IMG/VR virus record: IMGVR_UViG_3300031787_005083
Coordinates: 121,763 to 185,762 of that record
Strand: one strand, 5' to 3'
DNA length: 64,000 nt
Origin: a virus
Shown piece by piece: positions 8,194 to 56,644 of the stretch. The translations under genes were made by a program, and so were the position numbers. How positions within the stretch are numbered: the stretch's first letter is position 1; every line of letters begins with the position of its first letter. Below the pieces are notes generated by a model that worked only from the letters and a program-made list of their open reading frames with translations, made no database searches and was not told the origin of the DNA.

Positions 8194-9163
8194 TCTAGAA
8201 CGTGCAGTAGTTGAAGTTTTTGGGGGATGTAATTATACCTGTCAAATGTGTCCACAGACTGAAGGTAGAGGCAAGGCCTGGACACGTAAAATGCCACTTA
8301 ATATGTTTGAAAATATATTAGATCAGTTACCAGGTAATCCAGTTATTAATCTTGAAGGTAGTGGCGAACCTACTCTTGCTAAAGATTTGCCTTTGTACAT
8401 AGAAGCATGCACTAAACGAAATTTTCCTAGTTTTATGTATACTAATGGAAGTTTTTTCAGCGGTCATTTCATGCAAGATTGTGTAGACGCTGGACTAAGT
8501 TTTGCAAGATTTAGCTGTATTGGATACAATAAAGAAAAATATCGTGAGTGGATGAATGTTGATAATTTTGATTTACTAAAGACCAATGTAATAAAGGCCA
8601 AAGAGTATATTAAAAAATCTAACAGCAAATGTATACTGTCTAGTTATCATTTGATATTAGATAATACGCAAATAGATTACGAAGTTGAACAGTACCGTAA
8701 TAATTTTATTGGCCCAACTGGAACGTTAGGATACATATGGAAAATGCACAACTGGAGTGGCAATTATACTCCTGTATATTTTAGAGATCCTAAAAAACGT
8801 AGAACTTGTGGTAGACCATTTGCTCCTGAAATTACAATCCGAGCCGGTGGCAATAATGGTCTTACAGGCGCAGTTACTTCGTGTTGTCAAACAATGGGTC
8901 CACCAAACGAAAGTTTAAGTGTGCTAGGACATGTAGAAACACAATCAATAGAAGAAATATGGAACGGAGAAGCATACAATAAATTACGTGATGCACATGC
9001 TAACAAAAATTTTGATAGTATTGATTACTGTAAGAATTGTGATTTTTTATACGACGACCCCGAGGTGTTAGTTTGGAGTAACGACAAAGCAGCATCACTA
9101 GATCATATGCTTGGAACTAATTTTAGTCTTAAAGACTTTATGGTTGACAATACTTTAAAATAA
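8168..9163 (+). CDS. radical SAM/SPASM domain protein (C-terminal SPASM)
   Basis: About 331 residues. The cluster motif C21-x3-C25-x2-C28 lies in GGCNYTCQMCPQTEGRG near the N-terminus. The C-terminal third carries SPASM-like cysteines (TSCCQTMGPP, then SIDYCKNCDFLY) around a typical EEIWNGEAYNKLRDAH segment. This order, core first and SPASM last, is the classic one and differs from the N-terminal SPASM proteins in the same island. The start is uncertain: ATG 8168 or TTG 8159. Substrate unknown. Confidence 0.85.
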   Translation: MELKLSVPNLERAVVEVFGGCNYTCQMCPQTEGRGKAWTRKMPLNMFENILDQLPGNPVINLEGSGEPTLAKDLPLYIEACTKRNFPSFMYTNGSFFSGHFMQDCVDAGLSFARFSCIGYNKEKYREWMNVDNFDLLKTNVIKAKEYIKKSNSKCILSSYHLILDNTQIDYEVEQYRNNFIGPTGTLGYIWKMHNWSGNYTPVYFRDPKKRRTCGRPFAPEITIRAGGNNGLTGAVTSCCQTMGPPNESLSVLGHVETQSIEEIWNGEAYNKLRDAHANKNFDSIDYCKNCDFLYDDPEVLVWSNDKAASLDHMLGTNFSLKDFMVDNTLK

Positions 9164-9178
9164 TAGTATAATAATAAT

Positions 9179-9862
9179 ATGTATGATATCATTTTTATTT
9201 CTTATCAAGAACCTTATGCAGACATTAATTGGGAAAGATTAAAGTCTAAATTTCCTACAGCTAAAAGAGTTCACGGAGTAAAAGGAATTCATCAAGCACA
9301 CATCCAAGCGGCAAAATTGTGTTTTACAAAGATGTTTTGGGTCGTAGATGCTGATGCAGAAATAGTTGAAGATTTTAAATTTGATTATGTTGTTCCTGAA
9401 TGGGATTTAGAAACAGTACATGTATGGCGCAGTATAAATCCTGTTAACGATTTAGTTTATGGTTACGGAGGTGTTAAACTACTTCCTCGTAAATTAACAA
9501 TAAACATGGATACATCAAAAACTGATATGACAACAAGTATTAGTACGTTGTTTAAAGCAATGCCTGAAATATCTAATATTACAGCATTTAATACTGATCC
9601 GTTTAATACGTGGAAAAGTGCATTTAGAGAATGTGTAAAATTATCAAGCAAAACAATCGATAGGCAAGACGATATAGAAACTCAGTTAAGACTAGAAGCG
9701 TGGTGTACATTAAATGAGTCAGCGCCATACGGCAAATATGCACATCTGGGAGCTATTGCTGGAAAATATTTTGGTTTGTTTTGGCAAAATGCACCTAGTG
9801 AATTAGCGAAGATAAATGACTTCGAATGGTTAAATGAACAATTTTCAAAAAATACCTTTTGA
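9179..9862 (+). CDS. small glycosyltransferase-like protein
   Basis: A 227-residue protein whose N-terminal half looks like a minimal GT-A fold: MYDIIFISYQEP at the start and a DxD-type motif, VVDADAEI (D57 and D59), preceded by a hydrophobic strand. DxD binds the metal and nucleotide sugar in GT-A enzymes. It is short for a full family 2 enzyme, and the acceptor is unknown. It starts 15 nt after the preceding radical SAM gene. Upstream lies an A/T-rich stretch containing TATAATAA four bases before the ATG, with no clear Shine-Dalgarno. Confidence 0.6.
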   Translation: MYDIIFISYQEPYADINWERLKSKFPTAKRVHGVKGIHQAHIQAAKLCFTKMFWVVDADAEIVEDFKFDYVVPEWDLETVHVWRSINPVNDLVYGYGGVKLLPRKLTINMDTSKTDMTTSISTLFKAMPEISNITAFNTDPFNTWKSAFRECVKLSSKTIDRQDDIETQLRLEAWCTLNESAPYGKYAHLGAIAGKYFGLFWQNAPSELAKINDFEWLNEQFSKNTF

Positions 9863-18729: not shown

Positions 18730-19339
18730 TTATAATCTTATAAAGTTTTTCTGCGGCAATACTGTGTGAAATAGGACCAGGATGACTGTTATCGCTTGCT
18801 AAATCAACAATGTTTAAAATATTACTATACAGAGTATTTTTACCAACAAATTTAGGTATACTTCCAAGATACTGTCCGGCAACAGAATCTAATATCTTAT
18901 CCAATATAGAATCTGCATAAGACGGAGCCCAAAAATTACAATGTTTAATGCCTATACTATTCATATATAACTCTGCGTGATGTATATAAATTCCTGCTCT
19001 CACATTATTATCATAATTGCTATGTAGCTCAGTCCATTTTTTAAATAACGTACTATCTCTGCCTGGCGAAATTCTTATATCTGGCAATAATTTATTAAAC
19101 ACTATATCTCTATGACAATATGTCCATCCTACAACAACTATATCATCTTCTTTAAATTTAAACGATAATATGTTATTAAGTATTTCAAGATTACTACTTC
19201 CTGGAATACTTTTATTAACTACAGTCCGTTTAATAAGTTTACCTAAAACTACAGGCCATGCTTGTGATGAATCTGTTAGTCCGTAACCAGATGTAAACGA
19301 ACACCCGAATGTTATAAGCCTTGACACTCTAATGCCCAC
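18719..19339 (-). CDS. SGNH hydrolase-like protein
   Basis: A 206-residue protein with block I LITFGCSFTSGYG (Ser14), a block II-like IPGSSN, and the C-terminal DNSHPG motif that would supply catalytic Asp and His. This third SGNH type is closer to the one at 5597 (GCSFT) than to those at 15934 and 27613 (GDSFC). Two GTG starts are possible (19339 or 19327) and the SD does not decide between them. It overlaps the PP-loop gene upstream and the radical SAM gene downstream. Confidence 0.72.
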   Translation of the reverse strand: MGIRVSRLITFGCSFTSGYGLTDSSQAWPVVLGKLIKRTVVNKSIPGSSNLEILNNILSFKFKEDDIVVVGWTYCHRDIVFNKLLPDIRISPGRDSTLFKKWTELHSNYDNNVRAGIYIHHAELYMNSIGIKHCNFWAPSYADSILDKILDSVAGQYLGSIPKFVGKNTLYSNILNIVDLASDNSHPGPISHSIAAEKLYKIINEK

Positions 19340-19995
19340 TCACGTTCTTTACACCAGAAACAATTACCGCATACAGGAACATATTGTCCTGGTGTATATG
19401 TTGTATAATCTATATCTTCAAATTCGCCCTCACAACTACGAGTTAATTTTAAAAGGTCTTCAATGTTGTTTTTAAAATACTGTTTTATTATCCAGTCTTT
19501 CATAGTATACACGAAAGGATGATAAATGTCAATACCCATATGTTTCATATGAATGGGTAACACGCCTTCATCTCTTTCTTTTAAAGCTCCTACTATATCT
19601 ATATTTGGATTTTTAGTTACAGCAGAAAACCAAGCATCTAATTTATATGTATGAATTATGAATTCGTTATGGGCCCTAAGTATTATCCTATTACCTGGTT
19701 TAGTTTGTCCGTATTCGTCTTTAATATAGGTAGTATTTGGTTCTTCTAATTCTGGCGGAATAAACCCTTCGTGTCTTACAAATTTATTTTTTGGAAAACG
19801 CTTTTCTAACCATTTAAACACTTCCAAACTATTATGTCGTTGCCATGGTCGATTTTTCCAACATCTTACTTGACTAACAATATGTATTTCTGCATCTGTT
19901 CTAAGACAAATTAGATAAGCAAGAAGTGCGCTATCAGCACCACCACTTAGACTTATTCCAATTTTTTGCCACGCAGGATTTATATAAAGTTCCAT
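19312..19995 (-). CDS. PP-loop ATPase, QueC-like (7-cyano-7-deazaguanine synthase-like)
   Basis: A 227-residue protein with the PP-loop SGGADS at 17-22, which binds ATP, and a C-terminal cysteine set C188 and C209-x2-C212-x2-C215 (CGNCFWC) that matches the zinc site of QueC. QueC converts 7-carboxy-7-deazaguanine to preQ0. The core of this phage has FolE, QueD-like, QueE and DpdA-like genes but no other QueC, so this protein could fill the gap. Its context, however, is the radical SAM/SGNH island, and related PP-loop enzymes amidate or thiolate other substrates. It opens the - strand block from a divergent, apparently leaderless promoter. Confidence 0.55.
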   Translation of the reverse strand: MELYINPAWQKIGISLSGGADSALLAYLICLRTDAEIHIVSQVRCWKNRPWQRHNSLEVFKWLEKRFPKNKFVRHEGFIPPELEEPNTTYIKDEYGQTKPGNRIILRAHNEFIIHTYKLDAWFSAVTKNPNIDIVGALKERDEGVLPIHMKHMGIDIYHPFVYTMKDWIIKQYFKNNIEDLLKLTRSCEGEFEDIDYTTYTPGQYVPVCGNCFWCKEREWALECQGL

Positions 19996-20049
19996 GTTAA
20001 TATTTACCAGGATAACTGCGCACTTAATTTAGAAGCGGTAAATATTATT
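19996..20049. promoter_or_regulatory. divergent promoter pair made of an inverted repeat
   Basis: The 54-bp space between two divergent genes contains GGTAAATATTA on the + strand (20037-20047) and its exact reverse complement at 19998-20008. Each copy holds a T4-late-like TAAATA box, and in each direction exactly 5 nt separate the box from the ATG (20050 and 19995). A transcript started by gp55-type holoenzyme would begin at or next to the start codon, so both mRNAs may be leaderless; neither side has a Shine-Dalgarno. Confidence 0.6.
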
Positions 20050-20709
20050 ATGCTAGTAAAAACGACAATAACAGTACCTTCTGATCTACTATTAATTGCA
20101 GAAACAAAGTCTTTTGATGTGATGAAAACTACATTAAATGAGCCGACGGGCGATCTATTTTATGATCCTTGGACATTAAAACAAGAATTTATTGGATCTG
20201 TATGGGAAAAACTAATTGAGCCTCTAGGCCCTAACATAGGTGAGGTTAGAATTATTGTATTAGATTCACCAAGTGCTTATACACAACATGCTGATATTGA
20301 CGATAGATATCATTTAAACATTACAGGGGACGGTAGTTACTTGTTGGACCTCAATGATTTAAAAATATATCCTTTAATTAATGATGGCATATGGTATATA
20401 ATGAATGCTGGTAAACTACACACAGCAATCGCTGTTGGAAAGAAATACAGAATTCAATTAGTTGTTAGAAAATTATTAACTCATTCTGTATTAGTAGATC
20501 CAATTAATGTTAAATTAACACAAATTGATCCAAACTCAAGATATGACTTTGATAATTCTATAAGTAGTTGGTTAAATCAAGCAGTTAAAAGAAGTATTTT
20601 AGACAACTTTAGAATAGAAGGTAATAGTGCGTTATTTGCAGTTGAACATAAGTGTTTGCATGAGTTACTAACAATAGTACCATCAACTATAAAGATTTAT
20701 ATGAATTGA
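20050..20709 (+). CDS. 2OG-Fe(II) oxygenase-like (Asp/Asn hydroxylase-like) protein
   Basis: A 219-residue protein from ATG 20050. The double-stranded beta-helix metal triad is visible as H80-x-D82 (TQHADID) and H124 (NAGKLHTA), with R134 in YRIQLVVRK as candidate 2-oxoglutarate anchor. Such enzymes hydroxylate proteins or small molecules using Fe(II), O2 and 2-oxoglutarate. The C-terminal 75 residues have no known motif. An earlier ATG at 19966 would read back into the divergent gene and is rejected. First gene of the 20-24.6 kb + block. Confidence 0.65.
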   Translation: MLVKTTITVPSDLLLIAETKSFDVMKTTLNEPTGDLFYDPWTLKQEFIGSVWEKLIEPLGPNIGEVRIIVLDSPSAYTQHADIDDRYHLNITGDGSYLLDLNDLKIYPLINDGIWYIMNAGKLHTAIAVGKKYRIQLVVRKLLTHSVLVDPINVKLTQIDPNSRYDFDNSISSWLNQAVKRSILDNFRIEGNSALFAVEHKCLHELLTIVPSTIKIYMN

Positions 20710-26785: not shown

Positions 26786-26793
26786 GATAAATA
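26786..26793 (+). promoter_or_regulatory. T4-late-like promoter box, leaderless spacing
   Basis: GATAAATA at 26786-26793 ends 4 nt before the ATG at 26798. T4 late promoters read TATAAATA and initiate roughly 5-6 nt after the box, so transcription would start on the start codon. No Shine-Dalgarno lies upstream. The same arrangement is seen at 19996-20049 and 32964-32975. Confidence 0.5.
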
Positions 26794-26797
26794 TTTT

Positions 26798-27613
26798 ATG
26801 ATTAAAGGAATTGGCGGTAAGCCTTATATAAACTTAGATCCATTTTTAGATATTGATGGATTTAAAAATCTACATCCAGAAATATGTAAAGGGTTTGCCC
26901 TAGCTAGAGATTATGCCAAGGAAGGCACTTGGATGAAACCAGGGTTTGATTGGAAAGATGCTAGTTACATAGTTAATTGGAAACCAATTTATAAAGCAGT
27001 AGAAGAATATCTAGCTTTACCCAAGGAGCATCCTATTCGTGTACACGGCGATCCTATGTATTTTACAGACTTGAGTGATTTTAAAAATCGTAACTTATTC
27101 ACACGTTATCTTAAAATGGCCATGGGTGCGAGTGATCCTTATATTTACTACTTTCTGTGGGAACAAGGTGATTGGAACGACCGTAGCGCAGAACGCAAAC
27201 CTACAGAAGAAAGCAAATACTTTCCTGGTGTAGTAACGTGGGTAAACAATCTAGTAGAACAAAACATTATTAGCCAAATTGGTCGAGTTATATTCTTTCA
27301 CTGTGATCATAATGGACTAGGGTTTGAGCACAGAGACTTAGATGCTAACAATGGTGTATTAGAAAAGAACTCCTACACTGACCACCGCAACGAATTTATA
27401 CACATACGTTTTAGAACCAAGCGTGGATTTTATATTTGGGATCCGGATACTGAGAACAAACACTATATCAATAGCAATGCCGGCTTCTGGAATGACGAAG
27501 ACTGGCATGGCGGCGACAGTATAGGCGAACAGGATTATGCTTTACGTGTAGATTGTAAATTTACAGAAGAGTTTCGCAAGGCTCTTAAGATAGATTATTT
27601 GGAAAATTATTAA
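26798..27613 (+). CDS. 2OG-Fe(II) oxygenase-like/cupin protein
   Basis: A 271-residue protein with H178-x-D180 (EHRDLD), H237 (EDWHGGD) and R250 (YALRVDCKF) in a double-stranded beta-helix, together with a long, Trp/Tyr-rich N-terminal half of about 165 residues with no recognised motif. Such size is typical of an enzyme with a specific substrate-binding domain. It heads a + strand block, apparently leaderless. The SGNH gene follows with a one-base overlap (stop and start share an A). Confidence 0.68.
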   Translation: MIKGIGGKPYINLDPFLDIDGFKNLHPEICKGFALARDYAKEGTWMKPGFDWKDASYIVNWKPIYKAVEEYLALPKEHPIRVHGDPMYFTDLSDFKNRNLFTRYLKMAMGASDPYIYYFLWEQGDWNDRSAERKPTEESKYFPGVVTWVNNLVEQNIISQIGRVIFFHCDHNGLGFEHRDLDANNGVLEKNSYTDHRNEFIHIRFRTKRGFYIWDPDTENKHYINSNAGFWNDEDWHGGDSIGEQDYALRVDCKFTEEFRKALKIDYLENY

Positions 27614-31205: not shown

Positions 31206-32203
31206 TTTTTATAAAATTTAATAGGCAAAACATTTTCTTCGGTCAATATTACTTCATTTTGAGATGACGGACACATTGAACATTCACTAATTGGTTTATA
31301 CTTAGAAATAGAAAAATTTTCTACTTCTTCGTCAGTACAATTAGTTAAGTCAAGAGGTTTGTATGCTAAAAATTTCTGCCATTCTTCGTCGTCGACTGCA
31401 TTATGTCTTTCTAAAAAGTTTTTTAAAGTTCCTAATGCTGCACACTTATAAAGTTTTTTATTATACATAAATGTACAGTAACAACTTGGACAGTTACCAT
31501 AATAAGCCTTTTCAATATCCGTTGAGTTAAACGGTTTTGGTTTATTATCTTTCATGTAAAAATGTTTTAGATGGGAATCTTGATCAATTGAAAGTACACC
31601 GTACTGGCCGTTCCACCAAAAGTCATCATCAGGCGGAATTGGTGATTTATTTTCTATAGCACAATAAGCATTATGTCTATAGTCCTTAACATCAATCCAA
31701 TAATTCCTCCAACCATCAGTAGAGTCGTACATCATCTTTGACCAAAAATTCTCACTAGGAAGTTTTTGAATATCAAGTTTTTCTGTTAACACTTCAACGG
31801 CAGCTTTTATTCTATTTGATCGAGTCTTATCTTCAAATTGAATAAAGTGATCACTAACTAATATCATAACTTTATACTTAACAATAATATTAGATAAGAA
31901 GTCTATGTTCTTATCGATAAGTTCGCCATTAGTTGGAATCCATACTGGTGTAGTTTGATCAAAGCTTCTAATAAATTCTAGGAGTGATTCAATTCTGTCT
32001 TTGTATAACAGTGGTTCACCGCCTAGTAAACTATAGTGTTCAATATGAAACTTTTCTTTAGTTAACAGAATTCCTTCTTTGATTGTTTCAAGGTCAGGAT
32101 CATGTTCTCCTTTTCTAATCAAGTCACTACGTGTATCACACTGTTGGCAGGCAATTTGACATTTATTGCCGTAAAAAATATCAAAAACTTTAAGATTGGG
32201 CAT
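31202..32203 (-). CDS. radical SAM protein (CSMCP subtype)
   Basis: A 333-residue protein with C15-x3-C19-x2-C22 (NKCQIACQQC) and LGGEPLL. The C-terminus ends with ECSMCPSSQNE, also seen as CSMCPNSVE in the divergent gene at 32980, so these two form a subfamily with their own C-terminal cysteines. ATG 32203 is chosen because AAGGA lies about 5 nt upstream, while the longer frame (32248) has none. It overlaps the 2OG oxygenase-like gene by 14 nt. Substrate unknown. Confidence 0.86.
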   Translation of the reverse strand: MPNLKVFDIFYGNKCQIACQQCDTRSDLIRKGEHDPDLETIKEGILLTKEKFHIEHYSLLGGEPLLYKDRIESLLEFIRSFDQTTPVWIPTNGELIDKNIDFLSNIIVKYKVMILVSDHFIQFEDKTRSNRIKAAVEVLTEKLDIQKLPSENFWSKMMYDSTDGWRNYWIDVKDYRHNAYCAIENKSPIPPDDDFWWNGQYGVLSIDQDSHLKHFYMKDNKPKPFNSTDIEKAYYGNCPSCYCTFMYNKKLYKCAALGTLKNFLERHNAVDDEEWQKFLAYKPLDLTNCTDEEVENFSISKYKPISECSMCPSSQNEVILTEENVLPIKFYKK

Positions 32204-32936
32204 TATATTCCTTTTTATAACTTCTAGCAACGAGTTTAGTAAACTCACTTGTTTTATTTTCTAATTTACCGTGCGCAATTAAATGTATCCTAGACGTGTT
32301 AGATAAATTTATTACGCTATGATAATTTCTAATATTTATGATAAATGCTTTTCCGGTTTTAAATGGAACACATCCGTAACCGTCCAAGCTCATATAACAT
32401 TCTTCTGGATGTACTAATGCTATGTTTATGGGAACTCCAAATTTGAGAGCATCAAAGTTTTCTTCACCAGGTAATTTACCAGGGGCATCACTATGCGGGC
32501 TAATATGCCCTCCTGCTTCCAATTCCATAAATCTTATTCTTCTATAAGTATCGTACGGAAAGTTCTTCCAAAATTCTTTAATTACAGGTGTTTTGGATGC
32601 TACCGGGGTCCAATCATATGGTACTTGATCTTCATGGGTGTAACCATACGAAGTCCATGCACCGGTGCTAGCCGCGTTTATACCGTGTATACAGCAACTA
32701 TTCCACCCATGACTATCGCTTTCTCTATGAGGAACTAAATGTACTTTTGAATCCTCAGCTTCTTTAATCCATTTATCAACATCAAACTCAATATCAAGTT
32801 CTAACCAACCAAAATTACTTTTGTTCAATAACCAATCTGCTATTTCATAATCAGTTTTCGCCCATTCAGGCATTTTAGGTAAGTTAGATTTTATATTTTT
32901 GTTTTTGTGATAAAAATCCAACGCAGTGGTATTCAT
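32190..32936 (-). CDS. 2OG-Fe(II) oxygenase-like protein (Asp/Asn hydroxylase type)
   Basis: A 248-residue protein with H148-x-D150 (SPHSDAPG), H206 (NYHSVIN) and R216 (SRIHLIAH), the iron and 2-oxoglutarate ligands of Asp/Asn beta-hydroxylase-like enzymes. The N-terminal 130 residues are Trp/Asp-rich with no recognised motif. It heads a - strand operon with a CSMCP radical SAM gene and the two-domain unknown gene. It is transcribed from a shared, palindromic late promoter box and has a 27-nt leader without a strong Shine-Dalgarno. Confidence 0.7.
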   Translation of the reverse strand: MNTTALDFYHKNKNIKSNLPKMPEWAKTDYEIADWLLNKSNFGWLELDIEFDVDKWIKEAEDSKVHLVPHRESDSHGWNSCCIHGINAASTGAWTSYGYTHEDQVPYDWTPVASKTPVIKEFWKNFPYDTYRRIRFMELEAGGHISPHSDAPGKLPGEENFDALKFGVPINIALVHPEECYMSLDGYGCVPFKTGKAFIINIRNYHSVINLSNTSRIHLIAHGKLENKTSEFTKLVARSYKKEYNAQS

Positions 32937-32963: not shown

Positions 32964-32975
32964 TATTTATAAATA
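32964..32975. promoter_or_regulatory. bidirectional palindromic late promoter box
   Basis: TATTTATAAATA (32964-32975) is a perfect 12-bp palindrome that carries the consensus TATAAATA on both strands. It lies between the divergent genes at 32936 (-) and 32980 (+). On the + side only 4 nt separate it from the ATG, predicting a leaderless mRNA; on the - side the leader would be about 20 nt. One box could serve both directions. Confidence 0.6.
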
Positions 32976-32979
32976 GTTT

Positions 32980-33813
32980 ATGAACACAAAAATAAAAATC
33001 CCACATCTTGAGTGGCATGTTGCTCATGCTTGTAATCTATCTTGTAAAGGTTGTTGCCATCTTTCTGATTATGGGCAAAAAGGAATAGTTAGTTATAATG
33101 AGATCAAAGACTGGTATTCAAAATGGAGTCATAGACTAGCACCAAAATCAATAGACATTTTAGGGGGAGAACCTTTATTAAACAAAGATATCTGTAAAAT
33201 TATTTCTTTAACAAGAGAAATGTGGGATGATCCGTATCTAGAACAATTACAATTAACAACTAACGGACTTTTAATTCACAAATTTCCAGATTTACCTAAA
33301 GTATTAAAAGATTCTAATTGTTCTATTTCAGTGTCTTGGCATAGTGAAGATCCAAGTTATAATAAATTGTTTGATAAATCTAAAAACATTTTAAATGAAT
33401 GGGTAGAAAAATACGGAATCCAAGTTCGTATACTAGATTTTTATAATTATTGGACTCCATTTTATAAAGGTTACGGTAGCACTATGGAACCGTTTAACGA
33501 AGAAAACTTTGAAAAAAGTTGGGATAATTGTATAACGGGACAAGATTGTTTTCAGATATATAATGGCGATATTTATAAATGCTCAAATTTAGCGTACTTG
33601 CCTATGACTAAACAAAAAATTAATCTTTCAGAGAATTGGGATTATTATCTAAGTTATGTTCCACTAAAGCCGGAAGCTTCGGACAATGAAATTACAGAGT
33701 TTTTTAATAAAGGTGCAGAAAAATTTTGTAGTATGTGTCCCAATTCAGTTGAAATGATTAAAAAACCAGATCCTTTAAAATTTCGTAAACAAATACTGAT
33801 GAAGAAAATTTGA
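32980..33813 (+). CDS. radical SAM protein (CSMCP subtype)
   Basis: A 277-residue protein with C18-x3-C22-x2-C25 (HACNLSCKGCC) and LGGEPLL. The C-terminus carries FCSMCPNSVE, as in the divergently transcribed relative at 31202, which shares LGGEPLL too. Between them lies the late box. The gene is the shortest radical SAM protein of the island. It is followed at once by a TEKTWR-family gene. Substrate unknown. Confidence 0.86.
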   Translation: MNTKIKIPHLEWHVAHACNLSCKGCCHLSDYGQKGIVSYNEIKDWYSKWSHRLAPKSIDILGGEPLLNKDICKIISLTREMWDDPYLEQLQLTTNGLLIHKFPDLPKVLKDSNCSISVSWHSEDPSYNKLFDKSKNILNEWVEKYGIQVRILDFYNYWTPFYKGYGSTMEPFNEENFEKSWDNCITGQDCFQIYNGDIYKCSNLAYLPMTKQKINLSENWDYYLSYVPLKPEASDNEITEFFNKGAEKFCSMCPNSVEMIKKPDPLKFRKQILMKKI

Positions 33814-35063: not shown

Positions 35064-35090
35064 ATGACTATATCTGTTAGACTATCATGA
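35064..35090 (+). CDS. possible 8-codon leader peptide
   Basis: ATG at 35064 opens the frame MTISVRLS and stops at TGA 35088-35090, overlapping the aminotransferase ATG (35087) as ATGA. It starts five bases after the late promoter box, in the same place as the leaderless starts elsewhere. Eight codons are too few to judge coding. A translated leader would couple ribosomes to the next gene; chance is also possible. Confidence 0.25.
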   Translation: MTISVRLS

Positions 35091-36001
35091 AAAATAATTA
35101 CGATAAACGGCATCTTCCTTTTGGACATTCTACAGCTATACAAGACAAAGAAACATTATCTTTTATCAATAATTGTAGTATCTCAACACAAACATTAAAC
35201 GATCAAACAATTAACGAACAATTCCTTAGCAAGTATGTAGAATGGATATTGACTACAACAAATAACAAAGTAACTGGTATTGATCAGTATCCATTCAAAT
35301 GTTTTTCGCAAGGGACATCTGAAGCGTTTGAAAAATTTTATATGAATTATTCTCATAGAAGATTTCGATGTTTTAAAGGCGAGTATGTTTATCATAAATT
35401 AGCTTGGAGAGATGATAGATTTAATTGGAAATACTTAGAGGATGATGCGCTTGATGCCAATGACGTAGTAATAATTAGTCAACCTTTTTCTGATACAGGC
35501 GATCAGCATCCTTTACTTAATGATATTTTAGATCAATGTGACAAACTAAATATTCCTGTAGTACTTGATTGTTGCTACTTTGGTATTTGTAGTAATATAA
35601 ATTTTGATTTTACAAGACCTTGTATAAAAGAAATCATCTTTAGTTTATCTAAAACTTTTCCAGTAGCTCATATTAGAATAGGTATGCGTCTTTCAAGGAT
35701 TGATAATGACGATTTGTTATTTGTGTATAACAAAAGTGGCTACACAAATAGATTAGCAGCAAGTATAGGACTTAATCTTATTAATCATTTTGATTCTGAC
35801 TACATAGTTAATAAGTATAAAAATAAACAAATTGAAATCTGTAAAAAATTAAATGTAACTCCTAGCAATACTGTGTTGTTTGGAATAGGCGGCTCTGAAT
35901 GGCAGGAATACAATCGTGATAGAGCTACTAACAGATTAGGATTACATAATTTTTTACACATGGAAGATACAGAGTGCTTAGATGAATATGTCAAAATCTA
36001 A
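35087..36001 (+). CDS. PLP-dependent aminotransferase-like protein (fold type I)
   Basis: A 304-residue protein with the landmarks of the aspartate aminotransferase fold: D161 and Y164 in VVLDCCYFG (the Asp pairs with the pyridine nitrogen), the Schiff-base lysine K189 in FSLSKTF, and R197 in IRIGM, which binds the cofactor phosphate. The family usually has 350-400 residues, so this one is short, apparently lacking part of the N-terminal arm. It may transfer an amino group to a keto sugar or keto acid. It lies between two TEKTWR-family genes. Confidence 0.7.
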   Translation: MKNNYDKRHLPFGHSTAIQDKETLSFINNCSISTQTLNDQTINEQFLSKYVEWILTTTNNKVTGIDQYPFKCFSQGTSEAFEKFYMNYSHRRFRCFKGEYVYHKLAWRDDRFNWKYLEDDALDANDVVIISQPFSDTGDQHPLLNDILDQCDKLNIPVVLDCCYFGICSNINFDFTRPCIKEIIFSLSKTFPVAHIRIGMRLSRIDNDDLLFVYNKSGYTNRLAASIGLNLINHFDSDYIVNKYKNKQIEICKKLNVTPSNTVLFGIGGSEWQEYNRDRATNRLGLHNFLHMEDTECLDEYVKI

Positions 36002-40859: not shown

Positions 40860-42001
40860 GGATTTAGAGGATATAGTGGAAGTGCATAATCTACGCCATC
40901 AACTATAATTCTAATATATTTAACTGTTCCACCTGTATTAACTTCGCCGGAACCAGCACCAGCTACTATTGAATTATCTTGTATTCCGATAATCCCCTCG
41001 CTGTCTATAGATAACATAGTAACAAGTTCTTCTGTAGCATTTACACAACCTAATTCTATTCTACCTGGAATATACCCAGCACCCGGAGTGTCATCTACAA
41101 AAATTTGAATACCGGCTACTACAGCAGGACTACCGTTGCTATCTGCACCAAGCCAGTATTGACTAACAATTTTATCACCAATTTGAAGTGGCAATGGTGT
41201 TTCATGCGTTCCTCTATATCTACTATACAATACTGCTGGCCCTTCTACAGTATTAGAAGCGCCATAGATAGACATAGCGTCATACGCATCGTCCGCAGTA
41301 CCAGTAGTATATACAGCTAATCCTGCTAAAGTACCGTTATTATTTTGTCCTGATAATGTAATTGTAGCACCGTTAACATCTTTAGTAGTAATGGCAATAT
41401 TATCAACTTCGCCAACAATTTTTCCAGCTACTGAATCAACAAGAGTGCTAGAATCATCAGCAAAAACAGAACCTGTTAAATCGCCTATGATTTCTCTTGC
41501 AGTAAGTGTATCAGTTTCTGCGTCCCATAGCACTAAATTACTATCTGCTGAGCCGCTTGAGAGTTTAATAATTTGTGAACCAACTGCTAACGTAGTGTCT
41601 ACGTTTGCTTGAGTAGCCCAAAGATTACGCCACTGTTTGGCACTTGTACCTAAATTATAAGAATCGTCAATGGCTGGAGTCAGTGACGAATTAATTAAAC
41701 CAAGTACACTGATATTGTCGGTTGCATTGTCACCTAAGTTAATAGATCCAGTAGCAGTAATATTACCAGTAATATTAATGTTACCTGTGCCTATTATGTT
41801 ATTACCGTTTAAGTTTAAATTGCCGCCCAGCAGTGGACTTGTTTCAGTTGAAAGGGCAGTTGGGCCAACGAGAATACCACCTGTAGTAGCTCCGTCGCCT
41901 ACAAATAACTTTTTCGTATCAGTAACGTAGACAATTTCGCCTATGTCTACGAATGCAGTAACACGTTCTGCTTCAGTACCGCGTCTTAATTTCAAAGCCA
42001 T
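40856..42001 (-). CDS. tail fibre/receptor-binding protein with Mtd-N-like domain
   Basis: A 381-residue protein whose first about 45 residues (LKLRRGTEAERVTAFVDIGE, then LFVGDGATTGG) match the Mtd N-terminal domain found on phage tail fibre and baseplate proteins. The rest is Gly/Asn/Thr-rich, with beta-repeat stretches, as expected for an adhesin or fibre. It starts with a late promoter (CATAAATA at 42032-42039) and a CAGGAG Shine-Dalgarno 8 nt before ATG. No reverse transcriptase lies nearby, so this is not a diversity-generating cassette as seen here. Confidence 0.72.
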   Translation of the reverse strand: MALKLRRGTEAERVTAFVDIGEIVYVTDTKKLFVGDGATTGGILVGPTALSTETSPLLGGNLNLNGNNIIGTGNINITGNITATGSINLGDNATDNISVLGLINSSLTPAIDDSYNLGTSAKQWRNLWATQANVDTTLAVGSQIIKLSSGSADSNLVLWDAETDTLTAREIIGDLTGSVFADDSSTLVDSVAGKIVGEVDNIAITTKDVNGATITLSGQNNNGTLAGLAVYTTGTADDAYDAMSIYGASNTVEGPAVLYSRYRGTHETPLPLQIGDKIVSQYWLGADSNGSPAVVAGIQIFVDDTPGAGYIPGRIELGCVNATEELVTMLSIDSEGIIGIQDNSIVAGAGSGEVNTGGTVKYIRIIVDGVDYALPLYPLNP

Positions 42002-42031: not shown

Positions 42032-42039
42032 TATTTATG
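42032..42039 (-). promoter_or_regulatory. late promoter box of the tail protein gene
   Basis: CATAAATA on the - strand (42032-42039) lies 30 nt before the ATG of the tail protein and is followed by a leader with CAGGAG. This is the normal T4-like late promoter with leader, in contrast to the leaderless boxes of the island. Confidence 0.5.
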
Positions 42040-42989: not shown

Positions 42990-43223
42990 TTATTCTCCTT
43001 CTTTTTTAGGTTGTTGTGAAGCTACAGCGGCTAGAAATGCTTCTAGTTTATTGTATGTCTGTCCTACTACAACCATTTCGCTGGGTTTAAAAGTACCCCT
43101 TTGACTTGCAACATCAATAATTTGCTTTAGGGCGTTTAGATCCTGCACAGTTAGTTCTGCGCTAGGTTGTGCAGGTGCAGTTGTTGCAGTAGTTTCAGGT
43201 TGTTTCTTTTGTTCATCGCTCAT
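42990..43223 (-). CDS. small phage protein, unknown function
   Basis: A 77-residue protein with a low-complexity, Thr/Pro/Ala/Gln-rich N-terminus and a helical C-terminus (LTVQDLNALKQIIDVAS). GGAG lies just before the ATG and a late-like box (AGTAAATA) about 30 nt upstream. It has no recognised domain. Confidence 0.6.
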   Translation of the reverse strand: MSDEQKKQPETTATTAPAQPSAELTVQDLNALKQIIDVASQRGTFKPSEMVVVGQTYNKLEAFLAAVASQQPKKEGE

Positions 43224-43250: not shown

Positions 43251-43258
43251 TATTTACT
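43251..43258 (-). promoter_or_regulatory. late promoter-like box
   Basis: AGTAAATA on the - strand, about 28 nt before the ATG of the 77-residue protein and followed by a leader with AAGGAG. It deviates in two positions from TATAAATA, so the call is tentative. Confidence 0.4.
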
Positions 43259-46818: not shown

Positions 46819-46826
46819 TATTTATA
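46819..46826 (-). promoter_or_regulatory. consensus late promoter box
   Basis: TATAAATA on the - strand, an exact T4 late consensus, 31 nt before the ATG of the 98-residue protein. The leader holds AAAGGA, so this is the ordinary leadered type. Confidence 0.55.
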
Positions 46827-56219: not shown

Positions 56220-56609
56220 TTAAAGATTGAATGGATAATAGATAAGTGAGCCGTTTTCTCCATCTTCGGAGACTTCTATTTCGACAAAGCGGCCTGGAAA
56301 CTTTGAACGAATTTGCTGATACAAATCATCTGAAATCATCTCACATGATTTGTGATTCAGTTCTAGTGTGCCTTGATTATAAAGATTTTCTAACCAACGC
56401 TTAAATTGAATAAATTCGATGTCACGATCGTCGTGAAACACTTCGATACGAATTTTAAAGTGAAAAATGTGTCTATGGGGATAGCCTAGAAAACTTACGT
56501 CATACTGATCTCCAGTTTTTAGATTAGGGTCTGTAAGTGCTGCCGGGTAAAGATGAATGCCTTCTTTACGGAAGGTTACCCAGATGCTTTTTGTAATTGC
56601 TGTACTCAT
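56220..56609 (-). CDS. QueD-like (6-carboxytetrahydropterin synthase-like) T-fold protein
   Basis: A 129-residue protein that fits the QueD/PTPS T-fold: EGIHLYPAAL (H19), YPHRHIFHFKIRIEV (H45, H47, H50), DIEFIQFKRWLENLY, LNHKS and VEIEVSEDG (E115). QueD makes 6-carboxytetrahydropterin, the second step to preQ0, and FolE and QueE are present in this core. The catalytic Cys usual in QueD is not obvious, so it is divergent. A sigma70 promoter (TTGACA, 17 nt, TATCAT) ends 6 nt before ATG, which predicts a leaderless mRNA. Confidence 0.65.
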   Translation of the reverse strand: MSTAITKSIWVTFRKEGIHLYPAALTDPNLKTGDQYDVSFLGYPHRHIFHFKIRIEVFHDDRDIEFIQFKRWLENLYNQGTLELNHKSCEMISDDLYQQIRSKFPGRFVEIEVSEDGENGSLIYYPFNL

Positions 56610-56615
56610 GTTCTT

Positions 56616-56644
56616 ATGATACTTTCAATGTAGGTAGTTGTCAA
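56616..56644 (-). promoter_or_regulatory. sigma70 promoter of the QueD-like gene, leaderless spacing
   Basis: TTGACA (56639-56644) and TATCAT (56616-56621) on the - strand, spacer 17 nt. Only 6 nt separate the -10 from the ATG (56609), so transcription would start at or next to the start codon. No Shine-Dalgarno is present. Confidence 0.65.

Follow-up and report, generated by a model that had tools for sequence, protein, structure and literature searches.

Certain T4-like phages very probably express part of their genes through a conserved leaderless mode, in which gp55-type late promoters and sigma70-type promoters stand at such a short distance from the start codon that the predicted mRNA begins with AUG; read from sequence, this mode would combine two known things. 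The underlying arrangement, a TAAATA box followed after 5 nt by ATG, is plain in its geometry, is enriched and conserved, and is specific to particular phages. The window analysed here is a 64-kb stretch of DNA, the final part of a 185,762-bp IMG/VR virus record. The phage has a T4/RaK2-like DNA polymerase, and its closest isolates, Sinorhizobium phage Phosso and Agrobacterium phage Atu_ph07, share at most 48% identity with it. A gene for a gp55-type late sigma factor lies elsewhere in the same genome (G000:83860-84669, minus strand; phrog_12791, E 2.5e-78; phrog_234, E 1e-25). Sigma-factor searches with PF04542 (Sigma70 region 2) and phrog_188 gave no match, phrog_12791 being the family that matched gp55; T4 gp45 was assigned to phrog_223. 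According to the proposed mechanism, TAAATA or its variant TAAGTA, the latter presumably also gp55-dependent, would act as a -10-like late promoter without a -35 element, RNA polymerase would start on the A of the ATG, and the ribosome would bind the 5'-terminal AUG of the resulting mRNA directly.

An earlier note on this DNA had described TAAATA boxes ending 4-5 nt before the ATGs at 19995(-), 20050(+), 26798(+) and 32980(+), with no Shine-Dalgarno (SD) sequence. We find spacings of 5, 5, 4 and 4 nt, respectively, and a mean anti-SD duplex energy of -2.4 kcal/mol for the SD-less class with 4-6 nt spacing, versus -6.3 kcal/mol for boxes 16-24 nt from the start. The first two genes are divergent. 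On the minus strand, the box at 20001-20006 is separated by the spacer ttaac from the start of a predicted leaderless gene (19312-19995, 227 aa), so placed that the predicted +1 is the A of the ATG; an SGGADS motif read by eye suggests a PP-loop ATPase-like product, for which a Pfam search returned no match. On the plus strand, the box at 20039-20044 and the spacer ttatt precede its predicted leaderless partner (20050-20709, 219 aa). A module search places the two boxes and ATGs in a 60-bp back-to-back unit, CAT-5-TATTTA-32-TAAATA-5-ATG (19993-20052).

The gene caller chose a downstream ATG at 20122 for the second of these genes, and the intergenic DNA is AT-rich, so wrongly assigned start codons or chance matches could in principle create such an arrangement. 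Homologues of the 20050 gene begin at the same codon, which confirms this ATG, and alignments begin with residue 1 at the box-adjacent ATG, also for an SD-led homologue with the same start. In the annotated stretch of the cultivated Pelagibacter phage HTVC008M, 9/9 cases of the arrangement coincide with deposited start codons. Together with the permuted hexamers and other phages described below, which show no peak, these observations make an artefact the least probable of the explanations that we considered, and a very unlikely one.

Genes were called in the whole 185.8-kb genome and 18 related contigs, and the spacing between TAAATA and the ATGs of candidate gene starts was determined; the main survey was limited to ATG starts, other start codons giving few gene matches at 2-8 nt. 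The spacing is bimodal, with a sharp peak at 5 nt, a nearly empty zone at 7-15 nt and a broad, SD-bearing class from 16 nt upwards. Non-redundant counts were 9 at 0-3 nt, 6 at 4 nt, 22 at 5 nt, 1 at 6 nt and 10 at 7-15 nt, such that the peak holds 22 of the 48 starts whose box lies at 0-15 nt (binomial P ~2e-14, a rough guide that assumes a uniform expectation). In the genome of the window alone, 11 of 14 gene-start boxes at 0-15 nt fall at 4-6 nt (P ~2e-6). Such a gap is expected under leaderless translation, since an SD sequence does not fit into a leader of 2-10 nt. TAAGTA peaks at the same position (11 cases 5 nt before ATG), with no clear excess at leadered distances; it seems to be reserved for leaderless genes, as in clade contigs G003:41034, G009:11666 and G010:33070/33111. 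Across the window TAAATA is depleted about two-fold (73 found, 140 expected), as if it were counter-selected outside promoters.

A-U-rich sequence near start codons can help initiation, and TAAATA beside the ATG might accordingly be a translation element, such as a ribosome standby or enhancer site, with no promoter function. Fourteen other permutations of the hexamer averaged 2-5 cases per position, and none of them peaked at 5 nt. The same box also occurs 16-40 nt upstream, ahead of SD leaders, it fits the T4 late consensus in a genome that has gp55, and some homologues of the 19995 gene carry the promoter TTGACA-17-TATAAT in its place. We therefore consider a purely translational role quite unlikely, and favour promoter function.

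For a late promoter, the distance has a direct meaning. The T4 late box occupies positions -13 to -6 (PMC2988020), and with a 5-nt spacer transcription would thus begin (+1) at the A of the ATG. The base at -1 is a pyrimidine in 29/29 short-spacing cases versus 43% of all gene starts, as expected of the position before a transcription start. At leadered boxes, free of interference from a start codon, a pyrimidine-purine step is likewise commonest 5 nt downstream of the box (0.46; Atu_ph07, 0.68; T4, 0.45). A few cases have spacings of 4 or 6 nt, which leaves the exact predicted start uncertain by one base. The TAAATA core, often found as GATAAATA, lacks a conserved -35 element, for which modules down to 32 bp leave no intergenic space. 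The proposal in the earlier note that these mRNAs begin at the start codon is upheld, as a strong prediction, by the T4 geometry, the bimodal spacing, the -1 pyrimidine, the control phages and the conservation of the box over a drifting spacer.

This conservation can be followed at three of the window genes. Among non-redundant IMG/VR homologues, a box lies at 4-5 nt in 24/26 for the 19995 gene and 7/7 for the 20050 gene. The third gene, at 26798-27613(+) (271 aa), is predicted to be leaderless; it has its box at 26788-26793 and the spacer tttt, and TAARTA (TAAATA or TAAGTA) stands at 4-5 nt in 34/41 of its non-redundant homologues. Across the homologues of all three genes, box positions carry ~0.7-2.0 bits each and most spacer positions far less; box and spacing are also kept, over a drifting spacer, in a family of structural genes represented in seven contigs. 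A search of an annotated phage collection for isolate homologues of the 19995 and 26798 genes found none. In three window-gene homologues (L404, L409, L431) a normal SD leader stands ahead of the same start codon, and in four homologues of the 19995 gene (L331, L334, L344, L346) TTGACA-17-TATAAT-5-ATG replaces the late box, which implies that a single gene can exchange its leader and even its class of promoter. With the latter swap, the gene would remain leaderless but be expressed early rather than late.

The fourth gene, at 32980-33813(+), is predicted to be leaderless and encodes a radical SAM protein (PF04055; 277 aa). It follows the box TATAAATA at 32968-32975 (TAAATA core 32970-32975) after the spacer gttt; its known relatives are all identical, so box conservation there is uninformative. 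A second, opposite TATAAATA box (32964-32971, minus strand) overlaps it and serves a leadered gene at 32190-32936(-). A further TATAAATA box opens the segment 35051-35090(+), in which it is followed after 5 nt by an 8-codon frame, ATGACTATATCTGTTAGACTATCATGA; the TGA of this frame overlaps the start codon (ATG) of the gene at 35087-36001. Seen in identical relatives only, the frame is a possible leaderless leader peptide with translational coupling.

Bacteria are able to initiate without an SD sequence, and the mRNAs might start further upstream, within the divergent gene or an operon, with the box not an active promoter; SD-less translation would then begin on an AT-rich leader or, once a preceding stop codon has been passed, by re-initiation. 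Many clade cases do have a same-strand stop codon within 15 nt upstream: in 16/28, a same-strand gene ends there, often inside the box, and translational coupling is a possible second route for those cases. It is not one for the late cases in the window, whose divergent arrangement makes coupling impossible. Scanning 19700-20400 for sigma70 promoters gave no good one, only a single weak minus-strand match, fewer than in shuffled sequence. Upstream starts would also leave unexplained the exact 5-nt spacing, the opposed box pairs and the 6-nt peak of sigma70-type promoters described below. We regard such starts as improbable, though less so than the translation element or the artefact, and prefer transcription from the box.

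The phage appears to combine the leaderless mode with ordinary SD-led late genes. As had been noted before, the genes at 42001(-) and 46788(-) share the box and have SD leaders, and the gene at 43223(-) does likewise, the box-to-ATG distance being roughly 26-30 nt in all three. Their boxes are TAAATA at 42032-42037 (30 nt, with the SD AGGAG), TATAAATA at 46819-46826 (SD AAAGGA) and TAAATA at 43251-43256 (SD AAGGAG), all on the minus strand. The predicted coexistence of two initiation modes in one phage, short spacing without SD and leaders with SD, is thereby supported. The SD leader of the 42001 gene itself starts with TAAATA-ctat-ATG and an 11-codon open frame (42037-42001, minus strand), and judging from these letters its mRNA may carry a 5'-terminal upstream AUG ahead of the SD-led start.

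The division of labour that had been suggested, with cargo genes leaderless and core genes leadered, does not hold. Seven more late-type starts at 4-6 nt lie in the genome outside the window, and they belong to the large terminase subunit, a tail tube protein, a gp25 baseplate wedge, two virion structural proteins and two others; some cargo homologues, conversely, are SD-led. The apparent split was an effect of viewing 64 kb only. Positions 1-40856 of the window form a cargo region of ~40 kb with many genes for radical SAM proteins, alongside genes resembling 2OG-Fe(II)/Asp-Arg hydroxylases, SGNH proteins, methyltransferases and amidinotransferases, and the region resembles the radical-SAM-rich hypervariable region of pelagimyophages (PMC7029224).

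The proposal of leaderless late transcripts was too narrow: the predicted mode is not limited to late promoters. The gene at 56220-56609(-) (phrog_17812) had been singled out for its sigma70 promoter, and TTGACA-17-TATCAT-6-ATG is indeed present, with the promoter at 56616-56644(-). A predicted leaderless cargo gene that had been missed, at 9179-9862(+), has TTGACA-17-TATAAT at 9144-9172(+), again with the -10 box 6 nt before the ATG. In the clade, the spacing of this promoter type is bimodal as well: 16 promoters of the type TTGACA-16/18-TATAAT end 5-7 nt before an ATG, 13 of them at 6 nt, with few at 8-16 nt; in T4, Syn9, S-PM2 and RaK2, no sigma70-type promoter was found 3-9 nt before an ATG. 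Besides phrog_17812 and the 9179 cargo gene, a 185-aa family in several contigs belongs here. From its sequence pattern, the sigma70-type is a conserved class of predicted leaderless starts of its own, independent of the late class, in which host-type promoters would be used likewise, with the -10 box 6 nt before the ATG.

The back-to-back arrangement recurs outside the window. In 3.9 Mb, the pattern CAT-N4/5-TAYTTA-gap-TAARTA-N4/5-ATG, flanked on each side by an ORF of 60 codons or more, was matched by 70 non-redundant modules, versus 0, 0, 1, 0 and 1 for five permuted boxes; most came from loci fetched as window-gene homologues, and the 70 are therefore not 70 independent origins. Module lengths fall into three classes, 32-33, 44-49 and 59-60 bp; the 60-bp class includes the 19995/20050 pair, and the 32-bp class a DNA-end-protector/head-closure pair of HTVC008M, which is the same back-to-back module with 32 bp from CAT to ATG. 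Under the leaderless arrangement, divergent genes could stand only 26 bp apart. In the 60-bp modules (positions 19996-20049 of the window and L356-L361), the 32-bp stretch that separates the two boxes is conserved in part as CCAAGAAATATGCG..GTTAA...TCTTGG, an imperfect inverted repeat that is possibly a regulator-binding site.

The 5-nt peak is found in some T4-like phages and is missing from others. The comparison set comprised seven phages without it (T4, the cyanophages Syn9 and S-PM2, Atu_ph07, RaK2, phiM12 and the single-cell phage AG-345-L05, with 0-2 cases each) and three with it, namely the cultivated Pelagibacter phages HTVC008M and Mosig, with 12 and 5 cases, and Melnitz, an OM43 phage, with 2. 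HTVC008M and Mosig (Kyanoviridae) show the same peak, although they belong to a T4-like lineage distinct from the jumbo-phage-related clade of the window. HTVC008M genes with the arrangement include those for a 2OG oxygenase, a curli gene, tape measure, DNA end protector, head closure, tail tube cap and baseplate wedge. Phage-encoded ribosomal protein bS21 was considered as the cause; homologues occur in HTVC008M (position 91237), Atu_ph07 (489120) and Phosso (389762), and none was found in the genome of the window, so bS21 does not track the trait. As a weak hint to the host, a Ca. Puniceispirillum (SAR116) MAG includes a binned phage contig of the clade (L269, JADHOR010000039.1), on which the amidinotransferase-like cargo gene is present at 85% identity. 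Host-wide leaderless use in the SAR116 family was rejected: TATAAT-N6-ATG occurs 345 times against 157 for the reversed pattern, but a control with N11 spacing gave 355.

Leaderless phage genes are usually regarded as isolated oddities, and leaderless middle and late transcripts have reportedly been described for Thermus phage phiYS40; in the literature we found no report of leaderless genes as a systematic mode in T4-like phages. The likeness to T4 late promoters (TATAAATA, gp55/gp33/gp45; PMC2988020) lies in the box, the lack of a -35 element, the use of either strand, the gp55 homologue and a predicted start 5 nt downstream. T4, however, has no late box 4-6 nt before a gene ATG, against 11 in the phage of the window, and unlike T4 the clade prefers GATAAATA, with TAAGTA as a further box at the leaderless distance. 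In Deinococcus-Thermus, -10 boxes adjoining ORFs give leaderless mRNAs, with experimental support (PMC12340547); there too a -10 element stands directly ahead of the ATG without an SD sequence, but the promoters in that case belong to bacterial genes and are of the host sigma-A type, whereas here mainly phage-sigma late promoters, with a sigma70 class, are recognized from sequence alone. The classical leaderless phage mRNA is that of lambda cI, whose 5'-end AUG is translated without SD (PMC9031893); it is a single repressor gene, in contrast to the recurrent late and early mode predicted here, virion genes included. Late-promoter prediction was unsuccessful in a survey of pelagimyophages (PMC7029224), and the box-5-ATG feature has thus apparently gone unreported.

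In the proposed arrangement, a gene with ~11 bp of upstream DNA would be a complete expression unit; compactness and self-contained cassettes suggest themselves as advantages, and the shuffling of gene cassettes may benefit. With about even confidence, we suggest that a large, uncultivated T4-related group and the pelagiphages separately shifted part of their expression, in core and cargo genes and from late and host-type promoters, to the leaderless mode, and that back-to-back boxes in intergenic regions of 26-54 bp are minimal two-way promoters that travel with cassettes. This would mean that the phage depends on ribosomes being in a state that favours starting at a 5'-terminal AUG, or brings such a state about itself. 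The finding, if right, would correct the start codons of genes in many phage genomes from marine and fresh waters, provide a usable late-promoter rule for pelagimyophages, where prediction had failed, and allow the cultivated phages HTVC008M and Mosig to be used to test when phages give up Shine-Dalgarno translation. An expression signal of ~11 bp could also explain how cargo genes stay expressible when they are shuffled among phages.
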